A DNA stretch of 64,000 nucleotides from Sulfolobales archaeon HS-7 (GTDB lineage Archaea > Thermoproteota > Thermoprotei_A > Sulfolobales > Sulfolobaceae). Shown here piece after piece: positions 25,266-54,319 of this stretch. Position 1 is the stretch's first letter. Every line of letters starts with the position of its first letter. The stretch lies in assembly GCA_019704295.1 (NCBI GenBank), contig AP024596.1:1411369-1475368 (forward strand). Reading direction: 5' to 3'. The notes beneath the pieces are model-generated. The model searched no databases and had not been told where the DNA came from. It saw nothing but the letters and a program-made list of their open reading frames with translations. The translations under genes and the position numbers were made by a program.

Positions 25266-25846
25266 TGAAAGTTATCTTCACGGAGGGAATATCTGACGCT
25301 AAATTCATCGCGGGATTACTAGGAATCAGTGACTTAGAAAACGCTGAGAAGCACGCTAAAGCAATAGTTTCGAGCTATAGATGCTACAAAGATGACGATC
25401 TATTGATTTGCGAAGGAGGTGGTAAGGATAATATTTGTAGAAGGGCTAAAGAATTGAGTGAATTACTCAAATATAAGAAATTAAATTTTGAAATTCTCAT
25501 CCTTCTAGATGGAGACGCTAAGGGGACTAAATGCGACGTTGGTGAAATATTCTATTTAGATAATAAAAACCTAGATGAATTGCTCTTCAACGCTTCAATG
25601 CAGATCCTTACGAGCCACGATTACGCAAAACAACTACTAGAGCACGAGAAAAACAACGCAGATTCTAAACTAAAGGTTTATTTGGTTATGTATTTATTCA
25701 AGAAATTCGTATCATCTGGTGAAAACTGGACTGATTTGAGTTCGTTCTTTTATTTTGTAGCATGGCATTACAAATCTCAGTTATTGTCACTTGATTCTGG
25801 TCTATCAAAAATAATTGAACTCGTGACGGTGTCCAGTGTGGAATAA
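25259..25846 (+). CDS. TOPRIM-domain protein (DUF3226/DUF4435/OLD-like), 3' end replaced by a MITE
   Basis: 195 aa. A TOPRIM fold is suggested by 'KVIFTEGISDAKFIAGLLGI' (E9), then 'FEILILLDGDAKGTKCDVGE' (D84-x-D86) and 'FYLDNKNLDELLF' like the 'IED-LL' block of DUF3226/DUF4435. TOPRIM partners of AAA15 ATPases act as nucleases, for example AriB in PARIS and the nuclease half of OLD. It overlaps the ATPase gene: ATG at 25259 or, better, the ATG at 25265 within TGATG. The last codons (from about 25823) and the stop lie in the MITE at 25824-26188, so 'VTVSSVE' is foreign and the native C-terminus is lost or altered. Activity is therefore uncertain. Confidence 0.72.
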   Translation: MLMKVIFTEGISDAKFIAGLLGISDLENAEKHAKAIVSSYRCYKDDDLLICEGGGKDNICRRAKELSELLKYKKLNFEILILLDGDAKGTKCDVGEIFYLDNKNLDELLFNASMQILTSHDYAKQLLEHEKNNADSKLKVYLVMYLFKKFVSSGENWTDLSSFFYFVAWHYKSQLLSLDSGLSKIIELVTVSSVE

Positions 25847-34274: not shown

Positions 34275-37041
34275 TCTCAAAACCTGGTAGGAAGGCTACA
34301 AAACCGTTTGTCGGAAACTTCTCAGGAATGCTCTGGCTGGCTTTAAGCCGTCATAGGAAAGCTACAAACTATTCTCCTAGAAGCGAGTATTTCAAACAAC
34401 TGACTAGTTTCAAGCCCTCATAGGAAAGCTACAAACTCCTCGAGGAAATCGAAGAAAAACCAAACACATGGGGTTTCAAGCCCTCATAGGAAAGCTACAA
34501 ACCATATCGTGATTTATACAAATACCTACAAGCATAGGGAGTTTCAAGCCCTCATAGGAAAGCTACAAACGATTATGAGGATATTGATTACTGCGATTTC
34601 GAGTAGTTTCAAGCCCTCTTAGGAAAGCTACAAACATGATACAAATGAGCGCTATACCTAGTATTCCGTCTTGAGTTTCAAGCCCTCATAGGAAAGCTAC
34701 AAACCGCTCCCTCTTTGCCAAGCAGTTCCATAACCCTATCTCCGTTTCAAGCCCTCATAGGAAAGCTACAAACCCAATACACATCTATCAAACCATGCAA
34801 CATCGACTGGTTTCAAGCCCTCATAGGAAAGCTACAAACTCGCAAAATTATAGATTAATTGTAAATTTGTAATTTTGTTTCAAGCCCTCATAGGAAAGCT
34901 ACAAACCAACCTGGTTGCTGAGATCAGGCTCGTGTACAACGGGTTTCAAGCCCTCATAGGAAAGCTACAAACGCGTCTTACCGAGATATGCGGTCGGAGC
35001 AGGGAATGGTTTCAAGCCCTCATAGGAAAGCTACAAACCATGAGTTGGTGCGCCGGGCTCAACATATACAGCGAGTTTCAAGCCCTCATAGGAAAGCTAC
35101 AAACTCGCATCTTGCACGCACTGAACAGTCAGTTCATCCTCAGTTTCAAGCCCTCACAGGAAAGCTACAAACACAGAAGAGGCAACTACTTGACCCAAAA
35201 GCGAAATAGGTTTCAAGCCCTCACAGGAAAGCTACAAACAGTGGCAAGACGTGAGGACTTTTGCGACCTAGTATCGGTTTCAAGCCCTCACAGGAAAGCT
35301 ACAAACTATGAGAACATGCTGCAGGCAAAGAAAGCGGGAGAGAGTTTCAAGCCCTCATAGGAAAGCTACAAACCAATTCCGTAATTTGTATTTATGCCAG
35401 TTGGAACGGGTTTCAAGCCCTCATAGGAAAGCTACAAACAAGGTAGCCGGAAGGAAATTGGACGAAGTGGAGAGGTTTCAAGCCCTCATAGGAAAGCTAC
35501 AAACGTACTCGTCTCAATGGTCTAAATATTCCAGATCAGAGTTTCAAGCCCTCATAGGAAAGCTACAAACAATATGTGTTATTAGCCCTAATACCATGGG
35601 AGACCTAGTTTCAAGCCCTCATAGGAAAGCTACAAACCGTTAGGACCGACGCAACTTGTTCGTTCACACTAGAGGTTTCAAGCCCTCATAGGAAAGCTAC
35701 AAACGCGTTACAAATTTTCCTACTAATCAAGATGTAACTGGTTTCAAGCCCTCATAGGAAAGCTACAAACCAGGTTGGAGAAAAGGATTTTGGATGGAAT
35801 TATACAGTTTCAAGCCCTCATAGGAAAGCTACAAACGAATCCGGCGAATTTGAATCACCACGCCCCTGGCGTCAGTTTCAAGCCCTCATAGGAAAGCTAC
35901 AAACTGATGAGGACATTTCAGAAGAAGTTGACAGAATAGCCAGTTTCAAGCCCTCATAGGAAAGCTACAAACCCTCAGAGGGTTGATATAGGATGAGGAT
36001 AAATTGGAGTCGTTTCAAGCCCTCATAGGAAAGCTACAAACTAATATAGCAATATATAATATACCTATATAGGAATATGTTTCAAGCCCTCGTAGGAAAG
36101 CTACAAACTTTTCGCCTTTCTCCATAAAACTATCGATCTGTTTTAGGTTTCAAGCCCTCATAGGAAAGCTACAAACATAAGGAGGGGGTTTGAATTAGTC
36201 TCTACCAGGGATGTGTTTCAAGCCCTCATAGGAAAGCTACAAACCATTTATTCCATTTATTGCTGTCGATGATACGGCTAGTTTCAAGCCCTCATAGGAA
36301 AGCTACAAACTTAGCCGAAGCTGAACCAAATGAATTTGTGCGTATGAGTTTCAAGCCCTCATAGGAAAGCTACAAACCGAAGAGAAGGAAGAAACGCATT
36401 ATTGAAAAAATTTGTTTCAAGCCCTCATAGGAAAGCTACAAACGAAAGAGTGAGGCTAGTTATGAAACGGTTATAGAGCAGGGTTTCAAGCCCTCATAGG
36501 AAAGCTACAAACGTAACAGGAAATTTTCCCGTCAATTTTACATACTATCAGTTTCAAGCCCTCATAGGAAAGCTACAAACAATTTTACATATTTACCCAA
36601 AATATTTCCGTAATTGTTTCAAGCCCTCATAGGAAAGCTACAAACATTTATAAACGAACGTAAACCGCCCATTACCGTATTGTTTCAAGCCCTCATAGGA
36701 AAGCTACAAACCAACATTAAACCGATAATATGATGACCCGTATACGTTTCAAGCCCTCATAGGAAAGCTACAAACGTATTACACCTGCAGATCTAATTGC
36801 GTATATATCGAGTTTCAAGCCCTCATAGGAAAGCTACAAACCCGTATGCCGATTCAAATTCATACCAATATGTACACTGGTTTCAAGCCCTCATAGGAAA
36901 GCTACAAACAATGGTGTGCAACTATCGGTGAACTATACGACCCCGAGTTTCAAGCCCTCATAGGAAAGCTACAAACGCGGACCACGATGCCTTTTACATC
37001 TACTTCTATTTGTTTCAATCCCTCATAGGAAAGCTACAAAC
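34275..37041 (-). CRISPR. CRISPR array 1, about 41 good repeats plus a degenerate end
   Basis: 30-bp repeats written on the plus strand as GTTTCAAGCCC...GCTACAAAC, spaced by ~34-41-bp unique spacers. The first clear unit is 34340-34369 (with 'GCTTTAAGCCGTC' changes) and the last is 37012-37041 ('CAATCCC' variant next to the leader). A more decayed copy sits near 34275. The leader is at the right, so transcription is leftward and crRNAs would carry the 8-nt 5' handle CTTGAAAC. Variant repeats cluster: 'CTCTTAGG' (34606), 'CTCACAGG' (35142, 35209, 35277), 'CTCGTAGG' (36078). Decay of the leader-distal end is normal. Repeats are identical to array 2 in reverse complement. Confidence 0.97.
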
Positions 37042-37250
37042 ACTCCTTCTTTTGTCCTTTCTCGTTCATAAATTTTTCGGTATCAAATTCGGCAATCTCG
37101 CTCTCCCTAGAGGTTACGTGAGGTTGCCGTCGATAATTTACGTCTAAAAATATATGTTCTGTTATACATATTTTGGTATTACGTGGGGTTGCCGAATTCT
37201 TGTATGAAATAAAAAGTGAATATCAAAATAAATAGAAGGATTATTTACTA
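37042..37250 (-). promoter_or_regulatory. Leader of CRISPR array 1
   Basis: About 205 bp. Its reverse complement is nearly identical to 41325-41540, differing mainly in the last ~10 bases before the repeat (AAAGAAGGAGT versus AAATAATGAGT) and at the distal edge. It contains AT-rich promoter text ('ACATATATTTTTAGACG', about 37143-37160) and two 'GGCAACC(C/T)CACGTAA' motifs (about 37112 and 37180), which may be adaptation or binding sites (inference). Confidence 0.85.
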
Positions 37251-37329
37251 CTTATGGAGTTTTCTTTCCTTCACGAGAAAAACACGTAACGCTATGATCA
37301 TGATATCCAGTTCCTAGAAGGATTAAGTT

Positions 37330-37461
37330 ATGACGAAGTTTAAGTTATTCAAGGCCAGGAACTTCAACGATCACCACGTTGATATAGGTAAGGTTCTGGA
37401 CTCGGGTGTTCCCATAGCTATGTCAGAGGGGGTGTATATAGTGCCTTTGCATGAGTATTAA
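37330..37461 (+). repeat. R1 repeat copy with a 43-aa open frame
   Basis: Reads 'MTKFKLFKARNFNDHHVDIG' and 'KVLDSGVPIAMSEGVYIVPL' without stops to 37461. This is the best-preserved frame of the R1 family. The other copies show the same 'KARN..DVD.G.VLD...PIAM.E' order with stops. Likely the C-terminus of a transposase or a small gene; not identified. Confidence 0.5.
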
Positions 37462-37903
37462 CCTGTTTATACAAGACAAGTACTCTCACGTTACTAGGAG
37501 AGTCTGTAGGTCTTTCCCATGCACTTTGTAATCATCGCTAAGCCCCTAAGGAACGAGTACCAGAGTACCCTTTCCTCCCAACCTGCCCCCAGTTTGGACT
37601 AATCTCCTTAATAGCTCCCCCCTCTCAATCCATTGTTTAATAACGCCTTCAACTAAGGGGAGACGAGCTGGAAACTCCAGTATTCAGTAAAGTTTTTCGA
37701 TTCAGCGGTTTCATGACATTATTCCCTGCTAGTCCCTCATTTGGTAGTCCGGTTCAGCAGTAAATCGGTTCATTATAGGATAAGATAAAGCGAACTCGTA
37801 AACCCTTGACGGTTCCACCAAAACTGCGGATAAGGTTTCCGCGTTCTCAACCAGAACAAACGCATACACGAATCTTTTTTTGCCGAAGAGTACATAGATC
37901 ACA
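37462..37903. other. Gene-free stretch with a minus-strand relic
   Basis: On the minus strand about 37690-37552 a frame reads 'ILEFPARLPLVEGVIKQWIE' and 'RGELLRRLVQTGGRLGGKGT' before a stop, probably the end of a lost gene. Just before the next gene, 'ATCTTTTTTTGCC' at about 37870 is a plausible TATA region for 37904. Confidence 0.4.
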
Positions 37904-38368
37904 ATGAAGTGGAATAAGGCGGAATTTCAGGACGGGCTCGTACTCTTCTCCTCTGATGAGATAGAGACTACTACTATAGTTATTTCAAAAAGGGGGATAC
38001 ACTCCATCTCATCTAAGAGGGACGTTATTCTAATGGGATACGTTGAGTTCGGGAGGAAGGGCGAAATACGCTATTACGAGTTCGCCTTTACTCCTCCGCA
38101 CGGTAAGGCAATGCTGACCAGGAGCTTCCTCGCTAAGGACCCTGAATTGAGAGAGAAGGCCTTGAGGATTGGGGACGCTCAGGAGTACCACGAGTTCATG
38201 TTGGAACTAGAGAGGGAGAGTAAGGAAAGGGAGGAGTGTTTGAGGAAGTTGAGGAGCGTGAGGGGTAACTTGGACGTAGATGAGGACTGCTTCGTAGAGA
38301 AATGCAGGAGAGTGGAACCTATCGCCGACGCACTGAGGGAGTGTATCAAGCAAGAAGTTGAGGAATAA
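37904..38368 (+). CDS. Orphan 154-aa protein between the two CRISPR leaders
   Basis: The first ~85 residues are beta-rich: 'AEFQDGLVLFSSDEIETTTI', 'VISKRGIHSISSKRDVILMG', 'YVEFGRKGEIRYYEFAFTPP'. The last ~70 are a charged helix 'YHEFMLELERESKEREECLR' with Cys spaced 'EECLRK..DEDCFVEKCRRV..LRECIKQ', four Cys that could bind metal or form disulphides. I recognise no family. GC content and codon use resemble the AAA+ gene at 39188, not the AT-rich islands. Together they are the only intact genes enclosed by the arrays, so a functional link is possible. The ATG is chosen because a promoter-like T-run lies ~33 bp upstream. Confidence 0.65.
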   Translation: MKWNKAEFQDGLVLFSSDEIETTTIVISKRGIHSISSKRDVILMGYVEFGRKGEIRYYEFAFTPPHGKAMLTRSFLAKDPELREKALRIGDAQEYHEFMLELERESKEREECLRKLRSVRGNLDVDEDCFVEKCRRVEPIADALRECIKQEVEE

Positions 38369-39187
38369 GGTCAACCCGGCCGTTTCAAACTCTCCTGAAC
38401 TAAATTTACCCTTCCCTATTTATCTCAGCCCTTATTTCAGAATTATAACAACTTCCCTGGTTAACACTCAATTACCGCACTCCTTACCCTCTAAGGGTTG
38501 ATTTATCAAAGGCGTTCCGTGATAAACCTCTCTACTTAACTTACAGTGTTACTTCAGTAAACTTAAGCTATACCACAAAACAGAGGAATTAACAGGGTGG
38601 CATTTTCTTGAAACCGCTAGGATACTTCGTTTTTCATTTACCTTGAGCCGATTCCCAGGTTTGGGTATCTAAAAGGGCACCTTAACCAGGACGTTTCACG
38701 GTAGGTCGGGACTTGCACGTGAAGGCATACAATGCGTAGTTAACATAACTAAATAAACTAAAAAGTTATAAAGCATGCCGGTTCAAAATTATGAGAAGAA
38801 ATGTAATATAAAATAAGTTAATAAAAAATAATTAATATTTTTCGTAACCTAAGGCTGAAAGAGGCTTACAACGTGAAGAGTTACGAGTTGGTAAAGGAGG
38901 CCGAACGTTTTAAGCTTATGAAATTAATCAAGTAGTTTAAATCCTCCCCCCCATTACTATAGTTGGATATACACTAAGGATCTAATTATTCCTTAGTGAA
39001 ACTAAGACAATAAGGTAATAGCGTTTGTTCCACATCATCGCGTCATTCGAGGCCGGGATCGCGCCTCCCTGTAAGAGGTAATTTGAACAGGGGCTAACGT
39101 TATGAGAATTACAATTCTCAGAGCGTAACAGATCTAAACGTAAAGTTCGTAAGATAAGTTTATATCCTAGCCCGTAATACTTCGAGT
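38369..39187. other. Gene-free stretch with a MITE fragment and the AAA+ promoter
   Basis: About 38728-38940 resembles the right terminus of the GTGACRGTGTC family in reverse ('CATAACTAAATAAACTAAAAAGTTATAAAG' text), followed by a scrap 'VKEAERFKLMKLIK'. 'AGTTTATATCC' at about 39157-39167 is a TATA box ~26 bp before the GTG at 39188, indicating a leaderless transcript. No other feature seen. Confidence 0.5.
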
Positions 39188-40768
39188 GTGGAAGAGACGT
39201 GCCCCCTATGTGGGAGCAGGCTCGGAGTTGCCACCAGGAAAAGGGTACAGTGTAGGAATTGCAGATTCACTTTTAAGTTAAGGGAAATCGACCCTGAGAG
39301 GCTAAGTAGCCTCGTGAAAACAGGGAACGAACTCTTTCACCAGGGGAGATATTATCACGCCTTCCTGACTTACCTACAGGGATTTGAGGAGTCCTGCTGG
39401 GAAATTAAGGAGGAGAATAGGAAATACTGCTTTGGCACAGCGTACAACATGGCTGTAGCTTGTTCAAGTCTGGCAAAGAAATTCATTGAGGACTCAAATC
39501 CCTCAACCAACGGTGCCGACATTTGGATTTTCAGAGGGAAGGAACTACTCAGATGGCTCAGGAGAAAAGGGGACGAGGGCGAAGATATTCCCAAATTAGA
39601 GAAGGAGTTAAAGGAACTGGAGAGCGTGGATGGTGAAAAACAGGTAGACCACGATTCCAATTCTGGGAATAGCGAGGTGAGCGAAACGTCAAGCGAATCA
39701 AAGGATGAGTCCGAGGACGCTGAATCCAATTTTCAGAGACCACAGGTAGCGAAGAGGATTACCCCTCTCATAACCTACACGAATGAAGGGGTGATCTCCG
39801 AGATATATCCCGGAAAAAGCGTAATCGACTTCTCGTCGATCGCGGGGTATTCCTCAGTAAAGGAACAGCTCTTTGAGTTCGTGGTGCTCAGGCACAGGAA
39901 ACCGGAAATAATGGAGAGATATGGGTTGGATTCTGTTGCTAACGTACTGCTCTATGGTCCTCCCGGTAACGGGAAGACCCTAATGATCGAGGCACTGGCC
40001 GGGGAGATGGGAATCCCCTACCTAATTATAACCCCCAGTACAGTGCTTAACATGTACACGGGGACTAGCGAGAGAAACCTGGCTACGATATTCAACTTCG
40101 CAAAGAGTAACTCACCTTTACTTCTGGGAATTGACGAGTTAGATGGAATAGGATATGATAGGAATCTCAGAGTCGGAGATAGCACAATAACCGTGATTTC
40201 CCAATTACTATTTGAGATAGGGGAACTCAGGAGTTCGGCGGAATCCGTCTTCGTTGTCGGGACGAGCAACTCCCCTTGGTTAATAGATCCCGCTTTGTTG
40301 AGGACGGGAAGATTCGATAAGTGGATATTCGTCCCGCATCCCTGCAAGGAGGAGAGGAAATCAATATTTGAGTACTACCTAAAGAAACATGGGAATTTCG
40401 ACCTTGAGAAGTTCGCGAAGATGACGGAATGGGCATCAGCGTCCGAGATAAGATCAATAGTTACGGACGCACTTATGAAGAAGGCAAGAGACGCATACTT
40501 GTCAGGAGACTTTCCTCCACTAACTGAGGAAGATCTTGAGCAGGCAATCAAGGTTAGGGGGAACCTGGGAGTTGTAACGAAAAGATGGTACGTTGAGGCC
40601 TATCACGCCTTGTCGTGGAATTCCCTTGGAGTGGAGGGGCCTGTCTTAGATTTCATAGCCAAAGCTGTCAAATCCATGGAGAACGATGGTGGCAATGCCT
40701 TTTTTAAAGAGGTTGCGCTTCCGGGTTCTCATGTCTTATCTCATTCCTCAGTCCTTGGGCTACACTGA
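39188..40768 (+). CDS. AAA+ ATPase with N-terminal zinc ribbon (Cdc48/Vps4-like core)
   Basis: 526 aa. Residues 1-30 form a zinc ribbon 'CPLCGSRL...CRNCRFTF' (C5, C8, C22, C25). Residues ~40-135 are helical and TPR/MIT-like ('LVKTGNELFHQGRYYHAFLT'). A Ser/Asp/Glu-rich linker covers ~150-185. The AAA+ module has Walker A 'LLYGPPGNGKTLMIEAL' (~255), a pore-loop-like 'LNMYTGTSERNL', Walker B 'LLLGIDELDGIG' (~314), sensor 1 'FVVGTSNSPWLI', arginine finger 'LLRTGRFDKWIF' and a C-terminal lid 'ASASEIRSIVTDAL'. Such ATPases unfold or remodel proteins. The zinc ribbon plus TPR-like adaptor is unusual. It sits between two CRISPR leaders where Sulfolobales often carry cas1/2/4. The stop at 40766 is native; a MITE inserted immediately after it. 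Confidence 0.85.
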   Translation: MEETCPLCGSRLGVATRKRVQCRNCRFTFKLREIDPERLSSLVKTGNELFHQGRYYHAFLTYLQGFEESCWEIKEENRKYCFGTAYNMAVACSSLAKKFIEDSNPSTNGADIWIFRGKELLRWLRRKGDEGEDIPKLEKELKELESVDGEKQVDHDSNSGNSEVSETSSESKDESEDAESNFQRPQVAKRITPLITYTNEGVISEIYPGKSVIDFSSIAGYSSVKEQLFEFVVLRHRKPEIMERYGLDSVANVLLYGPPGNGKTLMIEALAGEMGIPYLIITPSTVLNMYTGTSERNLATIFNFAKSNSPLLLGIDELDGIGYDRNLRVGDSTITVISQLLFEIGELRSSAESVFVVGTSNSPWLIDPALLRTGRFDKWIFVPHPCKEERKSIFEYYLKKHGNFDLEKFAKMTEWASASEIRSIVTDALMKKARDAYLSGDFPPLTEEDLEQAIKVRGNLGVVTKRWYVEAYHALSWNSLGVEGPVLDFIAKAVKSMENDGGNAFFKEVALPGSHVLSHSSVLGLH

Positions 40769-40771
40769 AGT

Positions 40772-41290
40772 CACGGGAGAGCGTCTAATGTGCAATAAGT
40801 GTTATTTACTTTAAAAACTAAATTTTAATAAGTGGGAGTAACCTACTTTACACTACTCAATCAGGACGATAGGATAAGGAGAGCCAGAGTGAGTAACCCC
40901 CTTTACTAACTTACTATTATACTTTGTCAGACCTTAAAAACCAAGCTTTTTAGTTTGTACATATAAACCTACCAAAACATAATTCCTATATTCCACATAG
41001 TAAGGCATGTTGTGCAACACCCCAAGAGAGATTTTCCTTGACCCTAAGGGTATGACCAAGTATAAAATACCCGACAACAACCTCAGTAAACTTCGAGCTC
41101 GTCACGTTGAAAACTCAATTTTTACCTCTGTTCAATAAAGGATATATAGTCAGTTACGAGTAATTATGTTAACTAATTTTATATTATGTCTTCTCGTGTA
41201 ATTAAGCGAATTTAATTTTGAAGAGGCGTGTTTCATAACTTTTTACTTTATCTAGTTATTCACATTAATTGTGCATCGAACACCGTCACG
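40772..41290 (+). mobile_element. MITE at the stop codon of the AAA+ gene
   Basis: About 519 bp. The left arm has 'GCGTCTAATGTGCAATAAGT' (40781-40800); the right arm is the IS right terminus 'ATAACTTTTTACTTTATCTA' with 'GAACACCGTCACG' ending at 41290. TGAAGT occurs on both sides (40766-40771 and 41291-41296), a convincing target duplication that includes the TGA stop codon. It is longer than the other MITEs and shares interior text with 19680-19790. Confidence 0.85.
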
Positions 41291-41324
41291 TGAAGTATGA
41301 TTCGCGAGGGAAAATTAGAACTTC

Positions 41325-41540
41325 TCGATAGTGACAAATAATTCTTCTATTTATTTTGATATTCACTTTTTATTTCATACAAGAATTCGGCAACCCCACG
41401 TAATACCAAAATATGTATAACAGAACATATATTTTTAGACGTAAATTATCGACGGCAACCTCACGTAACCTCTAGGGAGAGCGAGATTGCCGAATTTGAT
41501 ACCGAAAAATTTATGAACGAGAAAGGACAAAATAATGAGT
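41325..41540 (+). promoter_or_regulatory. Leader of CRISPR array 2
   Basis: Near-identical, in inverted orientation, to the leader at 37042-37250. Holds 'AACATATATTTTTAGACG' (about 41427-41444) as a candidate promoter and the same 'GGCAACCCCACGTAA' and 'GGCAACCTCACGTAA' motifs (about 41389 and 41452). The first repeat starts at 41541. Confidence 0.85.
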
Positions 41541-44500
41541 GTTTGTAGCTTTCCTATGAGGGCTTGAAACTAAGTACCGGCACCGATACTTTCACAGGAT
41601 AGTATGGGTTTGTAGCTTTCCTATGAGGGCTTGAAACAGGTGTAGTGGTACTGTTGTACTCTGTGACCGTTATGTGTTTGTAGCTTTCCTATGAGGGCTT
41701 GAAACTGAAAGATGTGTGATATTGTAGAGGAGGATAGTCGGTTTGTAGCTTTCCTATGAGGGCTTGAAACATGTTCCTTGTCTAGAACGTAGTAAACTAT
41801 ATCGTTCGTTTGTAGCTTTCCTATGAGGGCTTGAAACCAGGAACGGGATTACTACTATTATTTTGAACAACAAGTTTGTAGCTTTCCTATGAGGGCTTGA
41901 AACTTTCAAATAGTTTCTTTATTATCTTCGGCTTATTTTCGTTTGTAGCTTTCCTATGAGGGCTTGAAACCGGTTTCAAGACATAGGATAATTATGAATA
42001 TTATCGAATGTTTGTAGCTTTCCTATGAGGGCTTGAAACCCACATTACTGCTTTCTTCACTCAACTCTGCCAATAGTTTGTAGCTTTCCTATGAGGGCTT
42101 GAAACATTTTGCCCTCCCCCCTGGTACCTTCGGCAGCGTAAGTTTGTAGCTTTCCTATGAGGGCTTGAAACGGTTCATAAAGAAAAACGGAAAATTGGGG
42201 GCATTAAAGTTTGTAGCTTTCCTATGAGGGCTTGAAACTTCTATCACGATAGTCCTTATATTGTTCATCTGTAAGTTTGTAGCTTTCCTATGAGGGCTTG
42301 AAACAGTCCACAGTGTTCTTAGAAGTGCCTCTAACCCACGTTTGTAGCTTTCCTATGAGGGCTTGAAACAACTCTAAGTACTCATTCAATGGTAACTCTA
42401 TTTCGGGTTTGTAGCTTTCCTATGAGGGCTTGAAACAGGTGAGAGGTACGAGTGATGTTCCGGACTGGGTCGGTTTGTAGCTTTCCTATGAGGGCTTGAA
42501 ACTCACAAACCCCGCGTCCTTCCACAGATCTGCGTTCCACTGTTTGTAGCTTTCCTATGAGGGCTTGAAACGGTTAAGGGCGGTAGCCCTTATACAGCGA
42601 ACGAATGGTTTGTAGCTTTCCTATGAGGGCTTGAAACTTTTTCCTAACAAGCCATGAGACCAAGTCCTCCTTGTTTGTAGCTTTCCTATGAGGGCTTGAA
42701 ACAAAAAGTGAAAATTAAAATCTCTTTTATTGTGAAAAGTTTGTAGCTTTCCTATGAGGGCTTGAAACTAAATATAATGGATATCCTAAGTAGATGTTTT
42801 CATCAAGTTTGTAGCTTTCCTATGAGGGCTTGAAACCCAAAATAATACATGGGAATACTAGCATGGTGAAGGGTTTGTAGCTTTCCTATGAGGGCTTGAA
42901 ACAATTTTCCAGGAGCCAGAACCAGCTCTGAATATCTTGTTTGTAGCTTTCCTATGAGGGCTTGAAACAATTTTTCCGTAATCGTGAAGTTTTCACCCTG
43001 TACGGGGTTTGTAGCTTTCCTATGAGGGCTTGAAACCTATTTTGGGTCTCTGGGGAGGCTCTGCTGTTTCAAGGTTTGTAGCTTTCCTATGAGGGCTTGA
43101 AACTATATGAAACCAATTTCACGTTCATTTTCCTATAACCGTTTGTAGCTTTCCTATGAGGGCTTGAAACAAATTTTCTAAGTTTCACGAAACTGAGACA
43201 AATACAAAAGGTTTGTAGCTTTCCTATGAGGGCTTGAAACTAGATCTTCTTTAGTCCGTCAGCCTTACTATTTTTCGTTTGTAGCTTTCCTATGAGGGCT
43301 TGAAACTTCGCTATCGTGTGGATGTCTTTCGGCGTCGCCATGTGTTTGTAGCTTTCCTATGAGGGCTTGAAACTACCGTCCCTGTAGATACTCGTGAATG
43401 AATAGATCCAGTTTGTAGCTTTCCTATGAGGGCTTGAAACCTGGGGAGGCTGCCACACAATGAAACGTGTGAAATCGTTTGTAGCTTTCCTATGAGGGCT
43501 TGAAACCTGGGGAGGCTGCCACACAATGAAACGTGTGAAATCGTTTGTAGCTTTCCTATGAGGGCTTGAAACTCTTCCTCCGAACTCTGAAGCGAATTGA
43601 TTACTTCAGTTTGTAGCTTTCCTATGAGGGCTTGAAACTTCGCCGGGTCCCACCTCATCTTCAGCGATTTGAGGGTTTGTAGCTTTCCTATGAGGGCTTG
43701 AAACTAAAGTTACGTAAAAGCACGTAAAAGACGTGTAACGTTTGTAGCTTTCCTATGAGGGCTTGAAACACTTTCAGAAAAGCATAAATATTTCCGATAA
43801 CGTTTTGGTTTGTAGCTTTCCTATGAGGGCTTGAAACATTCGTTCAATTTCGGATACTAACTTCTCTCCTTCTGTTTGTAGCTTTCCTATGAGGGCTTGA
43901 AACGTGACATCTTTCAACCATCTGGAACGATCTCATCAGGTGGTTTGTAGCTTTCCTATGAGGGCTTGAAACTCATTTTCATCGAAAACAAAATACGCTT
44001 TCTTTTTCATTGTTTGTAGCTTTCCTATGAGGGCTTGAAACAACTAGGTGATGGAGTGAAGGAAAGGGATACGCTCTTGTTTGTAGCTTTCCTATGAGGG
44101 CTTGAAACAACGTTCAGCCTGCCACATTAGATATATAGCAGGAAATTGTTTGTAGCTTTCCTATGAGGGCTTGAAACCAAATCGGTGACTGATTTGGGTA
44201 TATGACGCGATTCTGTTTGTAGCTTTCCTATGAGGGCTTGAAACTTACATATACCTTTCCAATGTAGTATTTTCTGTTCCAGTTTGTAGCTTTCCTATGA
44301 GGGCTTGAAACCTTTCGTTTTTCCCTAGTTGACCGCACTCGAAATCGGTTTGTAGCTTTCCTATGAGGGCTTGAAACCATTCCGTTGTATAAGGGTCTGC
44401 CTAATCTCCTAAGAGCGTTTGTAGCTTTCCTATGAGGGCTTGAAACCTAGAATTCTTTCCTCTATGTTGCCCCCTTCTTTTAGTTTGTAGCTTTCCTATG

Positions 44501-46179
44501 AGGGCTTGAAACTACATCCCGGGTAATGTGGGTTATCCCGGCAAAAATTAGTTTGTAGCTTTCCTATGAGGGCTTGAAACAAGTATGCCCTTATAATGTA
44601 CGTTTCGCTATTCTCAGTTTGTAGCTTTCCTATGAGGGCTTGAAACTTCCCGTTCAGGAAATCGCCCAGGGCTGTAAAATGGTTTGTAGCTTTCCTATGA
44701 GGGCTTGAAACCAGAACCAATTGGAGAGTGAGAATAATGAATGATATAGGTTTGTAGCTTTCCTATGAGGGCTTGAAACCAAATATTATCATATATTTCC
44801 CTGTATCCTTGTCAGTTTGTAGCTTTCCTATGAGGGCTTGAAACAATTTCACGGGAATTTTCATACCTAAACCGAACGGTTGTTTGTAGCTTTCCTATGA
44901 GGGCTTGAAACCTTCAGGTCAAAAATTGGGTGAATACCCGTTATGAGTTTGTAGCTTTCCTATGAGGGCTTGAAACCAGAACCAATTGGAGAGTGAGAAT
45001 AATGAATGATATAGGTTTGTAGCTTTCCTATGAGGGCTTGAAACGTGGAGTTTTGGCAGTTATAGGTTTGGAATAGGTACTCCGTCTATGGGGTACCCTG
45101 GTGAACTTGAAACGTGGAGTTTTGGCAGTTATAGGATTTTGGTATGACCGTTTGTAGCTTTCCTATGAGGGCTTGAAACCAGAACCAATTGGAGAGTGAG
45201 AATAATGAATGATATAGGTTTGTAGCTTTCCTATGAGGGCTTGAAACCAAATATTATCATATATTTCCCTGTATCCTTGTCAGTTTGTAGCTTTCCTATG
45301 AGGGCTTGAAACAATTTCACGGGAATTTTCATACCTAAACCGAACGGTTGTTTGTAGCTTTCCTATGAGGGCTTGAAACCTTCAGGTCAAAAATTGGGTG
45401 AATACCCGTTATGAGTTTGTAGCTTTCCTATGAGGGCTTGAAACAAAAGTAGTCATATATTGATTGTCGGTCAAACCCATGTTTGTAGCTTTCCTATGAG
45501 GGCTTGAAACCCCGTACCCAGGTGTTGGGTTTTTGTTCAATCTCCTCGTTTGTAGCTTTCCTATGAGGGCTTGAAACAGATTAGCCCTAATCCTGCATGT
45601 CTGTTAGCGTGTGTTTGTAGCTTTCCTATGAGGGCTTGAAACCTACTGACACGAGAATGCAGAAGCTGGCTTTCCTGGGTTTGTAGCTTTCCTATGAGGG
45701 CTTGAAACCAGCACCAACAACTAACACGACTATAGCAAGGACGAGTTTGTAGCTTTCCTATGAGGGCTTGAAACTCCATCCTCTTGTTATTAGTCCTTCT
45801 TTTGCCATTTCGCTGTTTGTAGCTTTCCTATGAGGGCTTGAAACACACGAATATAGTGGAGTTTACGGCACATGGGTATTTTGTTTGTAGCTTTCCTATG
45901 AGGGCTTGAAACCTAAAGGTGAACATGTATGCCACCGGGTGATGGATGTTTGTAGCTTTCCTATGAGGGCTTGAAACATCTGTCATTTCGCGATAAAAAC
46001 GATAATAAAGTTAGTTTGTAGCTTTCCTATGAGGGCTTGAAACTTTCATCATACTGCAAAACTTTTCCTTCTTCTAACCTGTTTGTAGCTTTCCTATGAG
46101 GGCTTGAAACCTCTTCACTACTTCGATTAAATGTGAATTTTTCACTTTTGTTTGTAGCTTTCCTATGAGGGCTTGAAAC
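41541..46179 (+). CRISPR. CRISPR array 2, about 69 repeats
   Basis: 30-bp repeats GTTTGTAGCTTTCC...GGGCTTGAAAC from 41541-41570 to 46150-46179, very uniform, with ~34-41-bp spacers. The leader is at the left, so transcription is rightward; processing within the repeat would leave the 8-nt handle CTTGAAAC on crRNAs, a form suited to type III-B as well as I-A complexes. One spacer is duplicated in tandem (about 43440 and 43507). A block of four units is duplicated with an aberrant repeat (44711-45414). The count is by eye and may be off by one or two. The last repeat abuts a small membrane protein gene. Confidence 0.97.
44711..45414 (+). repeat. Block duplication inside array 2 with an aberrant repeat
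   Basis: Spacers beginning CAGAACCAATTGG, CAAATATTATC, AATTTCACGGG and CTTCAGGTC follow in order at 44711, 44780, 44844 and 44912, and again at 45179, 45247, 45313 and 45381. The first also occurs a third time at 44975. Between them, 45045-45148 holds two copies of GTGGAGTTTTGGCAGTTATAG (45045 and 45114) separated by a 48-bp repeat-like segment (45066-45113) that begins GTTTG and ends CTTGAAAC but differs inside. This looks like unequal recombination followed by damage to one repeat, unless it is an assembly artefact. Confidence 0.85.
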
Positions 46180-47809: not shown

Positions 47810-48724
47810 CTACTCGCCTTCATCAAATTGCAATAGCGAACCCCATCCTAGCTTGCTTAGTTCCCCTAATTTCCTCTTTGCGTTAACCTTAAGAATAGCC
47901 CCAGGTAAAATCGCAGGATACATAGGTCTTCTGGCCCCGACCGACATGCTAAACCCCGTTCCTATTACCCCCAGCTTACCGCTCATCAGAATATCCTTTA
48001 CTTCTACGTCGTCCACCTTAAGTTTAAGTACGTCGTCCAGTGATGTTATTCTCACGTTATCCGTTAAGGGAATAAGTGCGGGGGAAACCAGAACGGACTT
48101 ACCTCCCCCCTTATTCAGGGAAAGAGATACCTCACTTACCTTTGCGACTCTTCCTTCCCCGCCTATCTCGATCACGCCGTCAAAACTAATGGGCATCTCC
48201 AGGTATATTCCCCACGTTTCCACCTCTTTGAAGTTCCTTATTACCGTAGCGTTTAGGTCCTCTAATTTCGAGCTGTAAAGCATATGTTCCTTAGAGCTTC
48301 CCCTACCCAAGTCCCTACCTATCCCTATCCTGTTGATCTCGGCAGGTTCTATTTTGATGGGGTTACCGTCCTCGTCTCTAGCCAACACTACTCTATCTTC
48401 CCTCTTTTCCAGCAACAGGAGCTTCCCCGGGAAATCGTGAACCATTATGAACTCACCCTTTTGCGTTTCCCTCTTCGCGTACACCCCCTTCACGTAGATC
48501 ACAGGTCCCCACACGTCAACGAAGGTCTTCTCGAATTCTTGGATCTCGTTTTGCGGCGTCAGGGTTTTAATCCCCACGTACTTCCTGTAAATTGCGCCTA
48601 ACACTGTGCTCACTAGGGGAAGAGGTTCCGAAATCCCCTTATTCATGGGTCCGCTGAAGTTGGGAGAGTATTCCCCGTACCACCTGAAGAACACGGGTTC
48701 TATAGGCCTTATGAGCAGTCCCAT
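47810..48724 (-). CDS. cmr3: Type III-B CRISPR protein Cmr3 (Cas5 group)
   Basis: 304 aa. Opens with 'MGLLIRPIEPVFFRWYGEYS', the Cmr3 start in which 'RPIEPVFFR' forms the first RAMP strand. It continues 'SEPLPLVSTVLGAIYRKYVG' (the usual 'P.P.t..GAlR' region) and ends with RAMP Gly-rich text 'GKLGVIGTGFSMSVGARRPM'. Cmr3 binds the crRNA 5' handle and joins Cas10 to the backbone. It is the last gene of the cmr4-5-1-6-2-3 operon and starts 3 bp after cmr2. Length is close to the family norm (~300-320). No catalytic role is expected. Confidence 0.92.
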   Translation of the reverse strand: MGLLIRPIEPVFFRWYGEYSPNFSGPMNKGISEPLPLVSTVLGAIYRKYVGIKTLTPQNEIQEFEKTFVDVWGPVIYVKGVYAKRETQKGEFIMVHDFPGKLLLLEKREDRVVLARDEDGNPIKIEPAEINRIGIGRDLGRGSSKEHMLYSSKLEDLNATVIRNFKEVETWGIYLEMPISFDGVIEIGGEGRVAKVSEVSLSLNKGGGKSVLVSPALIPLTDNVRITSLDDVLKLKVDDVEVKDILMSGKLGVIGTGFSMSVGARRPMYPAILPGAILKVNAKRKLGELSKLGWGSLLQFDEGE

Positions 48725-48727
48725 CCC

Positions 48728-51487
48728 TTACACCTCCAATTGCTTAATGGCCTTGATGACCTCCGTTCTCTGATCCCTTTCCATTTGTCTTTTGTTTCGG
48801 TTTACGGGGTGATGATTGATGACCTCCGTTCTCTGATCCTCTTTTTTAGGGGAGGAGTTTGAAAAATCCATATCACGGCTCGCATCCTTTCTCTGATCCC
48901 ATTTCTCCCCCTTCATCGTTATCGTCAGGTCCAGGGATACCAAATCCTGGTAAAGTCCCCTCAACTTAAGGTGAGGATCTCCGTTCCTTCGGAAAAGGTG
49001 AGCTATAGCGTCTTCAGGGAACTCCCTTATGACCGTCACGTCAGTGGTTAACCAATCCTGTATAAAGCTAGACGTCAACTTCTTTTCCCTTCTCAGGGAG
49101 TCTAGGACGTCAAGGACTCTCAAGGAGAGCTTACCGCCCTCCACCAGCGGATAGTTGTAGAGAATGGCCGCTTCCTCCCATTCAATTGCCCCCCTTCCCC
49201 TCAGCACCACAGTTACGTCCTTAGGTGAGCGAGTCTCCGAATTGATTTTGATTTCCAGGAAATCCTTTGTTTCCTCCAGGGAATGCGCAATTTCCCAAAG
49301 GTTATAGACTGCGTCCTTGTAGTGAGCTATGAGAACGCCGTAACTCCTACCGTATAAGGACAAAGCGTCCACTACCATCTCGTTAAATACGTGAAAACCT
49401 ACGGGGGAACCCCAGTAGTTAGTCCTGGTTTCCTTAACTAGGTCGAGGGCTTCCTCAACGGGGGTAAGGAACATTACGTCGTCACCTCCAGCGAACACCA
49501 GAAATCCCTTTTTGCTTACTGTGGACGCGTCCTTCACCGCACTCAAGGCCAGAGCTCGAGAGATGGCTATGAGATATATTCCAGTCACCGGGATAACAGC
49601 ACTCCTCTCTCCCTTGATGAAGTCGTCAGGACCTAGGGAGAGATGTTTCATGAGGGATAACAGAGAGTTAAGCCTCCTTTCAATTTCCTCAGTAACACTC
49701 CCTCTCGTTTTCTCAATGTACACCTTTAGGGTCATTTCAATGCCTCCTCTCCAGACCTTCTTTCCTATGAAGTCCCCGTCCCCTCTCACTATAGCGTAGT
49801 ATATTTTGATCTTCTTGGGTAATTCTCTCAAGAAATCATCGTCGTTTACGTTGCTGAATAACTCCTTGGCCTTTTTCGGTTCCCTGAGTATCGAGATAAA
49901 GGGCCTCTCCTCCCCAATGTAGAACAGGTAGCCCACGTCTTCGTATTCCTTAAGCGGTTTGGGAAGAGGTATCTTAACGTTGTCCTTTATTCCTACCTTA
50001 CTCAAGACCTCCCTCCACAGGCTTAGGTTGGCTATATCTATCGTGGAGGGTATTACCTCAAAATCTTCCTCTACGTAGAAGCCCAATTCCTCCAATAGCT
50101 TCCTTTTATTGCTTTTCCCTAAAACCCTCTTAATGTAGCAGTAAGCACAGAGCTCCTCCCTTTCGTCAAGGTTCTTATCCTCACCCCCATGTACGACTGA
50201 GGGTAGGATACCGCAAGACGTACACAGCGCGTATTTTCCTCCTTCTTTAAAAAGGGCGTGCGTGTTCTTCCCAGCTTCCAACGCGTACGTTACACCGTAA
50301 AGTACTTTGACCGGGCTTTCCTTATTTACCTCTTTAATTAACCACTCCAAGAAGAGGGAATTAGATGGCTCAACTAAATCTGAACTCCCGCTCGTAAAAC
50401 TCCCTACAGCCTCTCTGAAATCCTTAAACGCGTTATTCACGTCAATGACCTCAACCTTTATGGGCATTATGGGGAAATCCCTGATCCTCTCTCTAACGTC
50501 CGAATTGATGCACTTATCCACAAGAGTCTTCCAGGCGTTGCTGTAATTCTCCGTAATTTCCCTCTTAACGTCATCAGCCTTTTCGTAAACAGGAGGTAGT
50601 GCCAGCAGAATGGTTGCGGGCATTACGGGTTGGTATGGGGTGAGAATTTCGGAGGAGAAAAGGTTTCTGTACTTTTTCGCAACGTCCTTGGGAACTCCCT
50701 CCTCCATTTTCTTAATTACGGAGGAGATTAGGAACGGGTTAAGGCCTATGAAAGGCGAAATCATGATGTCAGCACCGTACTTGAAGATCAGGGGTTCAAC
50801 CGTTCTGTATGCCAGGAAGGAGAGGGTCCAACTGCCAGCCCACAGATCTGAGGCCCTTCTGGCCTTGCTTATCACCTGCTGAATGCCCGGTATGTCCACC
50901 TTAACTAGGTAGCCCTTGGGTTCATCCCCGTCAAGGAACCAATTTGAAAGAGTCGCCGTGCTGTAGAGGAGATCGAATAATGAGTAAGTGGGTGACCTTG
51001 GGTCGGCTACGGGAATTCCCTTAGGGTTATGCGAGTACCAAAGAAGTTCTAGAGACGTGTAAAGAGCGTTGTACCTGATCACGTCGTTCTCTATGCCTAG
51101 ATATAGGTTTAAGGCGTCCTCGACGAAGCCAGGTACGTCCCTAGGTTCCTGTATATCGTACTTGTACAGGGGATTAAACATATTGAGTTTATACCTAGGG
51201 ACTTGAACTTCCGCCTGGGGCGTCAAGAACTCATCAGCGGACGTGGAGAATAGCCTAGCTACGTTCACTGTCCTCTCCAGTTTTGCAACGTCCGCCTTCC
51301 CTATGACCTTAGCTAGGGCGTATCCCTCAGACTTCCCCAGCTCTCCCAAATCCTCATACGCGCTGCCAAGCCCCATCTTCGTCAAAACGTCTTTCACTAT
51401 CCTCCTTTCCTCAATCCCCTTCAACCAAGGCCTCCACGGGGGTTCGTGAAGAAGCGCCAGGAACTTAACCTTTATTTCATTTACCAT
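48728..51487 (-). CDS. cmr2: Cas10/Cmr2, large subunit of the Cmr complex
   Basis: 919 aa. N-terminus 'KVKFLALLHEPPWRPWLKGI': the HD-domain site usually reads 'LLHDPP', so the metal-binding Asp is Glu here. A zinc ribbon 'CTSCGIL...CAYCYIKRVLG' lies at ~420-451. The Palm/cyclase motif 'FLVFAGGDDVMFLTP' (GGDD at ~666-669) is intact, so cyclic oligoadenylate synthesis is possible, while DNA cleavage by the HD domain is doubtful. A low-complexity tail (last ~50 residues) contains three related motifs 'WDQRKDASRD', 'EDQRTEVINH' and 'RDQRTEVIKA', encoded by partly repeated DNA (48753-48895). The start overlaps cmr6 by 7 bp. Role: target-RNA-activated signalling in the III-B effector. Confidence 0.94.
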   Translation of the reverse strand: MVNEIKVKFLALLHEPPWRPWLKGIEERRIVKDVLTKMGLGSAYEDLGELGKSEGYALAKVIGKADVAKLERTVNVARLFSTSADEFLTPQAEVQVPRYKLNMFNPLYKYDIQEPRDVPGFVEDALNLYLGIENDVIRYNALYTSLELLWYSHNPKGIPVADPRSPTYSLFDLLYSTATLSNWFLDGDEPKGYLVKVDIPGIQQVISKARRASDLWAGSWTLSFLAYRTVEPLIFKYGADIMISPFIGLNPFLISSVIKKMEEGVPKDVAKKYRNLFSSEILTPYQPVMPATILLALPPVYEKADDVKREITENYSNAWKTLVDKCINSDVRERIRDFPIMPIKVEVIDVNNAFKDFREAVGSFTSGSSDLVEPSNSLFLEWLIKEVNKESPVKVLYGVTYALEAGKNTHALFKEGGKYALCTSCGILPSVVHGGEDKNLDEREELCAYCYIKRVLGKSNKRKLLEELGFYVEEDFEVIPSTIDIANLSLWREVLSKVGIKDNVKIPLPKPLKEYEDVGYLFYIGEERPFISILREPKKAKELFSNVNDDDFLRELPKKIKIYYAIVRGDGDFIGKKVWRGGIEMTLKVYIEKTRGSVTEEIERRLNSLLSLMKHLSLGPDDFIKGERSAVIPVTGIYLIAISRALALSAVKDASTVSKKGFLVFAGGDDVMFLTPVEEALDLVKETRTNYWGSPVGFHVFNEMVVDALSLYGRSYGVLIAHYKDAVYNLWEIAHSLEETKDFLEIKINSETRSPKDVTVVLRGRGAIEWEEAAILYNYPLVEGGKLSLRVLDVLDSLRREKKLTSSFIQDWLTTDVTVIREFPEDAIAHLFRRNGDPHLKLRGLYQDLVSLDLTITMKGEKWDQRKDASRDMDFSNSSPKKEDQRTEVINHHPVNRNKRQMERDQRTEVIKAIKQLEV

Positions 51488-52347
51488 AGTTTCACCCTGG
51501 ATACCTCAATGTCCGCCCTTCCGTATCCCTTGCTTGTCCTACTGCCGATTCCCCTAGATAGGGAGTAAGTTAGCAGTAGAAAGGCCAGCTCTGCGGGTTT
51601 TTTAAGGTCGTAGTTGAAGACTGTTTTAGAATACCACTTTGCCTCCTCAGTAGGTTTCATCCCTATTATGAATCTAAACTTTACACCCCTCTTTACTGAC
51701 AAACTGGTGATAGGATTTGGCACGACCTGCCATTCGCTCTTCACCACTCTCCCATTACTGTAATAGTGTGGATTCACGATATCTCCCTCGAATAACTCCC
51801 CCTCACTCAACTCCACCGGATAAGCGTTTGAAACTACGATTTCACCGACTTTACTCTGACTTTTTAGATCTTCTACTTTAAGGTACTCGAGGTCCTCCTT
51901 GTCGATAACGTCACCTGAGCCGAAGACTTTTAGTACGGATTCGACGCACCTTTTCCTCTCATTAACTTTCCTGCACAACTCTAATGCGTATGACCTCATG
52001 ACTCCCTTAAGTGAGGAACCTGGTACAAAGGGCAAGTCCAGGACTGAGTCCCAGTGCATCCCGACCTCGGTGACGAGCTGAAGGAATCCCGACGCCGAAC
52101 CGGTTAAAAGTCTAGATGTCAACACAGCTATTACGTCACACCCGCTTAGCTTGAGGCCCTTAAAGGCAGTAACTACCTCGTCAAGGTAACTCCTGGCCAA
52201 TTCCACGTTATTCTGGAAGTCGAAATCAAGCCCCTCATTAACTACCGTCTCCTTGATCTCTTTTCTCATGTCCTCCTTGCCAAGAGAACCCTTATACTTT
52301 TCCTTCACGGCAGATATTGAGGTAAGCATGAAGTTCCTTCCTTTCAT
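51481..52347 (-). CDS. cmr6: Type III-B CRISPR protein Cmr6 (Cas7 group)
   Basis: 288 aa. RAMP features: 'SGCDVIAVLTSRLLTGSASG', 'LPFVPGSSLKGVMRSYALEL' (the conserved 'P.ipGSSlKG..R' loop), 'GEIVVSNAYPVELSEGELFE', and the C-terminal glycine-rich loop 'SLSRGIGSRTSKGYGRADIE'. Cmr6 caps the backbone of Cmr4 subunits together with Cmr1 at the 3' end of the crRNA. It overlaps cmr1 by 4 bp (ATGA type) and cmr2 by 7 bp, showing tight translational coupling. The ATG at 52347 fits the family, although the ~45 N-terminal residues are extended. Confidence 0.9.
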   Translation of the reverse strand: MKGRNFMLTSISAVKEKYKGSLGKEDMRKEIKETVVNEGLDFDFQNNVELARSYLDEVVTAFKGLKLSGCDVIAVLTSRLLTGSASGFLQLVTEVGMHWDSVLDLPFVPGSSLKGVMRSYALELCRKVNERKRCVESVLKVFGSGDVIDKEDLEYLKVEDLKSQSKVGEIVVSNAYPVELSEGELFEGDIVNPHYYSNGRVVKSEWQVVPNPITSLSVKRGVKFRFIIGMKPTEEAKWYSKTVFNYDLKKPAELAFLLLTYSLSRGIGSRTSKGYGRADIEVSRVKLW

Positions 52348-53855
52348 ACTCGCCTACCCCCTCCGAAGCATTGAGTTGACTGATCCCTTTGTTCTTGTCC
52401 AGGTTTACAACACACGCCTATGTAGGCTTTGACATACATCATGGCGTTATCCACTAATTTGCTAATACTAGTAATTTCTAAGTCGTCTCTAATCGGGATG
52501 AATATAGGCCCTCTCTTTTTATCATTTATCAGAAAGCCCTCAGATACCCCTTCCTCTTTGGGTGTCCCAGATACCTTCTCTTTGGGCACATTTGGTAGAA
52601 AAGTTAGGGCGTGAACGTTAAATCCGTTTTCGGCTTTACTCACATCTAATACAACGTAAGATTGTCTTCTCGCTATCTTCTTTTCCCCAAAGAAGATGTA
52701 TCCTGTAATTTTAACATGAGGTCTTACCGCCCCCCTAGATTTATCTCCTTTCCCCAAATCAATTACATCACGCAGGCGTTCCCCTAATATCTTCTTTGCC
52801 TCTTCGATATTAGGTGTTCCTTTTCCACCCTTACCCTCTCTGGGTAATCCTAAAACCCATGTGTCTAACTTATTACCACGCTTTTCCTGATATAATCCCT
52901 TCCACTCTGCCTTAAGGATGGCCCTTCCTATACATTCTAAGGCATGCTCCACATTTCCTGAAACAAACCCTAATTTAACGCGACTGGTGTATACCGGAAA
53001 GGTATCTGAACGAGACAGTCTCTGGTGTAAGAGGTCCTGTGGGTCGACGCTTAACTCACTCCTGTCTAATCGCTCGAACCTCCCGAACCCTCTGTTGCCC
53101 CCCTGTCCAATTCCTAATCTAGATAATGTGAACAGAGAGGATTTAACGAATTCCTCACCCAAGGTCTTTTCTTCCCTTTCCGCCATCACCTCCACTGTGA
53201 TGGACACAGTACCTGGTCTCACAGGTAAAGCCTTTATAACATTCAACAAAGCGCTCTCTTGGGAACCCTGACGATACCAAATCCTAAGCAATTTTTCCAC
53301 CTTGAGAAAAACTCTTGGAATACAGAATATTGACAGGAAATCAAATCCTTGCTTTTCATCACAGAGACCTCTGAGGCTTCCCTCAACCTCCTTCATTTTC
53401 CTCTTTAGTTCATTCTCCTCATTCAGAGCGAGGTAAGTTACCTTTTTTCTCCCCCCGTGGCCTGTACTCGACTCCTTCTTTGCAGTTTCAGGCACGACGT
53501 CGTTCACGACCTCACCTGTCTTTAAGTCCACCTTTATAGGGCTACCAGTAATGCTAACGGTAACAGCTGACTTTCTCCTCTTCTTTGAGTCCCCCGTTAT
53601 GCCTAATTTCTCTAGGAAATCGTCTCCCCTAATAGTCCTCATGAACCAAACGGTCTTACCCATCAGGGATTTCGCATCAGGTAAATTGACGTATCCGTAA
53701 TTCCCCTTTACTCTGATGACGTTACCGGAGAAATCTCCTCCCCACCAGGGAGTGTAGTTGACGAAATTCCCCCTGAAGATTACTTCTTGTTTCGCGACTC
53801 CCTTTACCTTGTTTATCATGTTCCCTATGTCTGGATTATCACTCATTAGTGTCAC
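52344..53855 (-). CDS. cmr1: Type III-B CRISPR protein Cmr1 (Cas7 group)
   Basis: 503 aa. 'IFRGNFVNYTPWWGGDFSGN' near residues 26-45 is the Cmr1 hallmark ('TP...GG'). Further on, 'VKSSLFTLSRLGIGQGGNRG' followed by 'FGRFERL' is the glycine-rich RAMP loop. It caps the crRNA 3' end with Cmr6. Start: GTG at 53855 or ATG at 53846; both overlap the cmr5 stop (53839-53841), and the ATG gives 'MSDNPDIGNMINKVKG'. A Lys/Arg-rich insert near residues 120-150 ('KKESSTGHGGRKKVTYLALN') may be disordered. The C-terminus 'QRDQSTQCFGGGRRV' carries a DQS/DQR motif similar to the Cas10 tail. Confidence 0.9.
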   Translation of the reverse strand: MTLMSDNPDIGNMINKVKGVAKQEVIFRGNFVNYTPWWGGDFSGNVIRVKGNYGYVNLPDAKSLMGKTVWFMRTIRGDDFLEKLGITGDSKKRRKSAVTVSITGSPIKVDLKTGEVVNDVVPETAKKESSTGHGGRKKVTYLALNEENELKRKMKEVEGSLRGLCDEKQGFDFLSIFCIPRVFLKVEKLLRIWYRQGSQESALLNVIKALPVRPGTVSITVEVMAEREEKTLGEEFVKSSLFTLSRLGIGQGGNRGFGRFERLDRSELSVDPQDLLHQRLSRSDTFPVYTSRVKLGFVSGNVEHALECIGRAILKAEWKGLYQEKRGNKLDTWVLGLPREGKGGKGTPNIEEAKKILGERLRDVIDLGKGDKSRGAVRPHVKITGYIFFGEKKIARRQSYVVLDVSKAENGFNVHALTFLPNVPKEKVSGTPKEEGVSEGFLINDKKRGPIFIPIRDDLEITSISKLVDNAMMYVKAYIGVCCKPGQEQRDQSTQCFGGGRRV

Positions 53856-54315
53856 CCTGCGGCGTGAGCATTTCGCTAAGTTCCTTGACTCTTATGATCG
53901 GCGTGAGTATCTTCTTCTCTATTTTCACTTCCCGCTCCTCAATGCTCCTTATGCACTCTAAGATCAAATCCTCCCTGATTTCGTCACCACCACAACTTTC
54001 CACCTCCATACTGTTCAAGATGTAGAAAAGGGAACCGATAAACGCCGAATAGCCCTTATTGCTCTCCCCTTCCATGTCACTACATATCTTTTTGTCTTCA
54101 ACCCTCGGAGATTCCGCTCTCCAATAATCGTAATAGTACCCGATATCGGAGATCTTCCCCTTTGATAAGTAGAAAATCATGGCACCTACAAGACCTCCCT
54201 GCAGCATCAATGATGGGAAGTCCCTTGCTCTTCTCGTAAATCCTTTAATTCCCTCATCCCCGCACTTCCTCTTGACTTGGTATAACTTCTTAGCAATGTC
54301 TATAGCCAAATCCAA
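53839..54315 (-). CDS. cmr5: Type III-B CRISPR protein Cmr5 (Cas11, small subunit)
   Basis: 158 aa, all-helical: 'DLAIDIAKKLYQVKRKCGDE', 'RARDFPSLMLQGGLVGAMIF', 'GYSAFIGSLFYILNSMEVES', 'REDLILECIRSIEEREVKIE'. The 'ar.fPs.l...GL....F' pattern is the Cmr5 core. It lines the target-RNA channel beside Cmr4. It starts 4 bp after cmr4 and overlaps cmr1 by 17 bp. Length is near the top of the family range (usually 120-160). Confidence 0.88.
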   Translation of the reverse strand: MDLAIDIAKKLYQVKRKCGDEGIKGFTRRARDFPSLMLQGGLVGAMIFYLSKGKISDIGYYYDYWRAESPRVEDKKICSDMEGESNKGYSAFIGSLFYILNSMEVESCGGDEIREDLILECIRSIEEREVKIEKKILTPIIRVKELSEMLTPQGDTNE

Positions 54316-54319
54316 GTTC

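Follow-up and report, generated by a model that had tools for sequence, protein, structure and literature searches.

Two arrays of clustered regularly interspaced short palindromic repeats (CRISPR), A2 and A3, lie in the 64,000-nucleotide (nt) stretch of the genome of Sulfolobales archaeon HS-7 that we analysed (contig AP024596.1, positions 1,411,369 to 1,475,368), referred to below as the window. The arrays are read away from each other, and their leaders enclose 4.1 kb that hold a gene for a zinc-ribbon AAA+ ATPase, a gene for a protein of 154 amino acids (aa) and repeat debris (Table 1). We ask here what this arrangement is, and what the ATPase has to do with it.

Twin leaders and outward arrays

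The window contains an inverted repeat of 238 nt (37009-37246 and 41336-41573), whose arms are 98% complementary and separated by 4089 nt, far beyond what is expected by chance. Each arm consists of the leader and the first repeat of an array, with the leaders inside and the arrays outward, and the leaders agree at 202 of the 205 bp that adjoin the first repeats. The twin inverted leaders with outward arrays that an earlier, sequence-only reading of this DNA had described are thus confirmed, and so is its inventory of the enclosed segment: when open reading frames (ORFs) of at least 60 aa are counted and antisense shadows are excluded, the only intact ones between the leaders (37247-41335) are those of 154 and 526 aa, which are accompanied by a scrap of a dispersed repeat (R1) and by a miniature inverted-repeat transposable element (MITE). 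Neither an adaptation gene nor any other cas gene lies there. R1 and the MITE are both multicopy, as counted in the stretches of this genome that were fetched.

In the direction leading away from its leader, the repeat of both arrays (GTTTGTAGCTTTCCTATGAGGGCTTGAAAC) has the orientation GTTTGTAG...TTGAAAC. The leader-proximal repeat of A2 (37012-37041) carries one private substitution and the leader-distal one (at 34340) is degenerate, with three substitutions. Visual inspection shows a candidate promoter element, CGAAAAATTTATG, which stops about 30 nt short of the first repeat. Considering the direction of the repeats, the degenerate distal unit of A2 and this candidate promoter, the outward transcription of both arrays is a sensible reading. 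We also note a gap of 105 nt between recognised repeats of A3 (45044-45179), which probably corresponds to one degenerate repeat.

A2 and A3 have no spacer in common, therefore the two arrays were built separately or have diverged fully, and a recent duplication of a whole array is ruled out as the origin of the pair. Partial overlaps link some spacers of A2 and A3 with spacers of array A4, which look as if they had been drawn from related invaders, and a spacer region of A3 agrees with Sulfolobus turreted icosahedral virus 2 (STIV2) at 31 of 33 nt; no match was obtained with A2. The overlaps with A4 and the STIV2 match are as would be expected for working arrays.

Table 1. Features of the locus (positions in the window, except for the genome positions in the last row)
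Feature	Position	Strand	Remarks
CRISPR array A2	34340..37041	-	41 repeats, read leftwards
Type I-B leader of A2	37042..37246	-	205 bp shared with A3
Dispersed-repeat fragment (R1 of the sequence-only reading)	37266..37446 (approx.)		68-83% identical to other genome copies
154-aa protein gene	37904..38368	+	no family match
Partial MITE copy	38711..38791		inverted relative to the copy at 41171-41293
526-aa ATPase gene	39188..40768	+	GTG start
MITE copy	41171..41293 (approx.)		other copies 75-86% identical
Type I-B leader of A3	41336..41540	+	from inverted-repeat search and leader alignment
CRISPR array A3	41541..46179	+	69 repeats, read rightwards
Type III-B effector module beside A3	47810..55228	-	Cmr3, Cas10/Cmr2, Cmr6, 503-aa ORF, Cmr5, Cmr4
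Leader copies in the genome	1373.5 kb; 1448.4 kb and 1452.7 kb (window pair); 1489.4 kb	+; - and +; -	

The leader family and its cas cassette

In Sulfolobales, most arrays have a leader of about 200-400 bp in front of them that contains conserved motifs (PMC4390879). The leader of the window is present in four copies in the 2,151,177-bp genome. A core of about 145 nt is nearly invariant across all four, and the two copies of the window are the closest pair, with about 40 nt more upstream in common than the other two. In all four copies (those of the window, L014 5477-5672 and L015 14388-14583), the motif CGGCAACC(C/T)CACGTAA occurs twice per leader, and TTGCCGAATT is found in inverted orientation close to the repeat end. 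The CGGCA and TGCCGAATT parts show conservation across genera and may therefore be protein-binding sites.

The genome gives a single Cas1 match, which is located 0.9 kb behind the fourth leader, at 1490.5 kb; cas4 lies between this leader and cas1, and cas8b after cas1. With the type I-B Cas1b model, this Cas1 exceeds the cut-off score. Next after cas8b come ORFs that resemble Csh2, Cas5 and Cas6; Cas3 and Cas2 are on the other side of the array of the same leader, and the genes behind this leader align with their counterparts in relatives. Behind the leader at 1373.5 kb, a toxin-antitoxin-like gene pair comes first and a second Cmr gene set next. The Cas1 match rules out that the adaptation genes were lost from the genome. 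They had been proposed to be replaced or moved: a cassette does exist elsewhere, about 37 kb to the right of the window pair, while their replacement by the two enclosed genes finds no support.

A search of 31 Sulfolobaceae genomes, with a pattern made of the end of the leader and the start of the repeat, returned 15 leaders of this subtype I-B family in six genomes; the same pattern read backwards gave zero matches. Over the last 145-146 aligned leader positions, at least 142 agree within a genome and the differences between genomes are wide. Since the copies are homogeneous within genomes and divergent between them, the near-identity of the window twins is the general within-genome state of this leader family.

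The surroundings of these leaders vary. The divergent leaders of G024, at 1093.6 kb (-) and 1103.6 kb (+), enclose cas3-cas2-cas5-csh2-cas8b-cas1-cas4, that is, the whole I-B cassette, and the idea that paired leaders can flank cas genes is borne out by this pair. G006, G026 and HS-7 each have one leader directly backed by cas4 and then cas1, and others that are not; cas3 lies behind the leader of G020, and shortened cas3 and cas1 matches lie behind that of G008. (Only these shortened matches are found near the single leader of G008 in L169, 1134.2-1137.6 kb, and the I-B cassette looks decayed there.) Altogether, no I-B cas gene is seen behind 8 of the 15 leaders, as far as the stretches read extend, so that the missing adaptation genes between the window twins are unremarkable. 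The sequence-only reading had drawn attention to this absence; neither the absence nor the identity of the twins sets the locus apart from its family.

A2 and A3 are both regular repeat-spacer arrays with the conserved leader at one end, and the same leader stands beside type I-B cas genes in this genome and in relatives: the locus is a rearranged type I-B multi-array locus. We consider it probable that it consists of a divergent pair of type I-B arrays with copied leaders, for which the distant cassette works in trans, and that the enclosed 4.1 kb are a leftover or a passenger. Each leader would act as the promoter and the spacer-integration site of its own outward array, and both arrays would depend on the single adaptation and effector cassette behind the fourth leader; the position of this cassette and the single Cas1 match are observed, the service in trans is what we infer. 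The pattern of homogeneity within genomes and divergence between them is also observed; the near-identity of the twins would result from recent copying or homogenisation within the genome, either by gene conversion or by recent duplication. The segment between the leaders would be made of two independent genes and repeat debris, and indeed, the 154-aa and ATPase genes occur apart in other genomes.

A few points weigh against this reading. Several orders of events are possible (the cassette moved out, a leader was copied in or the genes were inserted), and no empty or ancestral twin locus was available from a close relative. A2, whose first repeat carries the private mutation, is a putative active array. 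Last, all three ATPase carriers have the I-B leader type and the ATPase gene of G026 is 1.8 kb from an array, which a pure passenger would not predict.

The enclosed genes and their possible link to CRISPR

The 526-aa ATPase begins with a CxxC...CxxC zinc ribbon, followed by TPR-like helices (about 36-149), an acidic linker and a single Cdc48-like AAA+ domain with a Walker A motif (GPPGNGKT) and a Walker B motif; among proteins of solved structure, VCP-like ATPases are the best matches to its sequence. The AlphaFold model of the full-length protein is poor (mean pLDDT 46), and the N-terminal 150 residues modelled alone reach a pLDDT of 90. Foldseek relates this N-terminal model only weakly to TPR proteins (best E 0.008, low TM-scores), so that "TPR-like" is used as a description only. 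A TATA-like box, TTTATAT, precedes the GTG start by about 27 nt. From the domains and this box we infer that the protein most likely acts as a remodelling enzyme of the Cdc48 kind, with its own promoter, rather than a replacement for adaptation genes; it would be transcribed from this promoter and the zinc-ribbon/TPR head would bind the substrate.

Among the 31 genomes, full-length relatives of the ATPase are found in two others only, G026 (43% identity) and G020 (34%), and when 398 genomes of the phylum are compared with a profile of its N-terminal part, strong matches are confined to these two and HS-7. In a tree, the three AAA domains group together as a separate clade (support 100/99), whose placement is uncertain because the branches are long. 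Two scans of GTDB contigs returned no relative, or matches to the AAA domain only. Judged from these sequence comparisons, the ATPase represents a new and rare family, of which three members are known; we found no report of it, nor of this leader pair, within a partial coverage of the literature.

The 154-aa protein matches nothing in Pfam, NCBIfam or PHROG. It has one homologue (about 35% identity) among the 31 genomes, in G010, which lacks the I-B repeat type of the window leaders, and there is no CRISPR array in the 19 kb read around that gene (within about 9 kb). Because the homologues of the two enclosed genes occur in different genomes, these genes are not a conserved pair. The suggestion that they form a conserved CRISPR-linked module also fails, since the 154-aa homologue and one of the two ATPase homologues are at non-CRISPR loci.

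It may be asked whether the ATPase segment is a mobile element, either bounded by MITEs or carried as viral cargo, which inserted between leaders that formerly enclosed a cas cassette. The ATPase gene, which is patchy in its distribution and evolves fast, is indeed flanked by inverted MITE copies, and the cassette of G024 is found between such twin leaders. We nevertheless hold this scenario to be rather unlikely: the left MITE copy is partial and MITEs of this type are scattered over the sampled genome, no transposase gene is recognised in the segment, and no clear target duplication is seen by eye. A viral or plasmid origin of the ATPase finds no support: collections of viral contigs, phages and plasmids yielded no full-length relative, and phage matches cover the AAA domain only.

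A link between the ATPase and the type I-B system deserves to be weighed in its own right, as accessory ATPases near Cas modules are reported to be common in Sulfolobales (PMC4390879, section 9.3). The family would then consist of new accessory ATPases of archaeal type I-B systems, kept beside the arrays by selection and acting on effector or integration complexes, for example by remodelling or unloading them. The gene is present in 3 of the 7 genomes that have the I-B leader/repeat type and in none of the 24 others (one-sided Fisher P = 0.008); without HS-7, in which the gene was ascertained, the counts are 2 of 6 and 0 of 24 (P = 0.034). As to the co-occurrence with this repeat type that the sequence-only reading had asked for, all three ATPase carriers have it, and the homologue of the 154-aa protein is in a genome without it. 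Two of the three ATPase copies are beside an I-B-type array. In G026, the gene precedes by 1.8 kb a short array on the same strand, the repeat of which is related; no leader is recognisable at this array, the DNA upstream of it being single-copy in G026 and unalignable with the other leaders. The third copy, in G020, is 86 kb from the sole leader, and a search of the 59 kb that surround this copy gave no array. Moreover, the gene is missing from four genomes of the I-B repeat type (G006, G007, G008 and G024). Because the Fisher test ignores phylogeny and there are two independent carriers, the co-occurrence is a lead only. We consider an accessory role of the ATPase possible but unlikely.

An invertible switch, in which homologous recombination between the leaders flips 37250-41335 and changes the orientation of the genes, is very improbable: arms of 205-238 bp with 98% identity, 4.1 kb apart, are a plausible substrate, but homogeneous leaders are general in the family, including in copies that are not inverted neighbours, and flipping would change little, as the ATPase appears to have its own promoter. 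Divergent arrays served in trans, with passenger genes between them, thus remain our preferred interpretation.

Neighbouring genes and comparison with known systems

The type III-B module beside A3 includes a 503-aa ORF (52344-53855, -) without any NCBIfam match at E 0.01, which, by its position, may be the Cmr1 subunit or another protein of the module. It is one of two separate type III-B Cmr sets in this genome, the other being at 537-3889 of L014 (G000), and both are near I-B arrays. Two further loci may be related to defence. A 976-aa DEAD/DEAH helicase near the left array (28312-31242, -) has weak similarity to the BrxHI, DpdF and Cas3 helicases. An ABC-type ATPase (24138-25846, +) gives matches of the AbiLi, PtuA and AriA type and is followed by a 195-aa gene, with which it possibly forms a two-gene defence pair.

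This analysis brings to light a small and rare ATPase family that co-occurs with the I-B leader type, and a I-B leader family that is kept almost identical within genomes of Sulfolobaceae while it diverges between them. It also shows that an array can be remote from the adaptation cassette and still keep its leader intact, as would fit with several arrays being served in trans by a single cassette.

The ATPase is similar to IetA, of the IetAS defence system, by its AAA+ domain. It is not IetA, since only this domain matches (PADLOC E about 1e-28; 85 bits in NCBIfam for a cut-off of 510), and no subtilase IetS accompanies it between the leaders, where the only other gene is that of the 154-aa protein without family match. 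It shares an AAA+ domain with its Walker motifs with the Cdc48/VAT-type ATPases. However, CDC48 has an N domain and two AAA domains, whereas the window ATPase has one AAA domain (151 bits for a cut-off of 803), a zinc ribbon and a TPR-like head in place of the N domain, and belongs to a separate clade of three.

Type I-B is the rarer of the type I subtypes in Sulfolobales, with 5 loci compared to 33 for I-A and 14 for I-D (PMC7694759). Like these I-B loci, that of HS-7 has Cas1b, Cas4 and Cas8b at the cassette, and a conserved leader and a 30-bp repeat that are found in several genera. Unlike them, it has four arrays, only one of which is beside the cassette, and a divergent pair that encloses genes other than cas. 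A close likeness is found in G024 (C1:1093600-1103607), where two inverted leaders of the same family also precede outward arrays; that pair encloses all the I-B cas genes, whereas the window pair encloses the genes of the 154-aa protein and of the ATPase.

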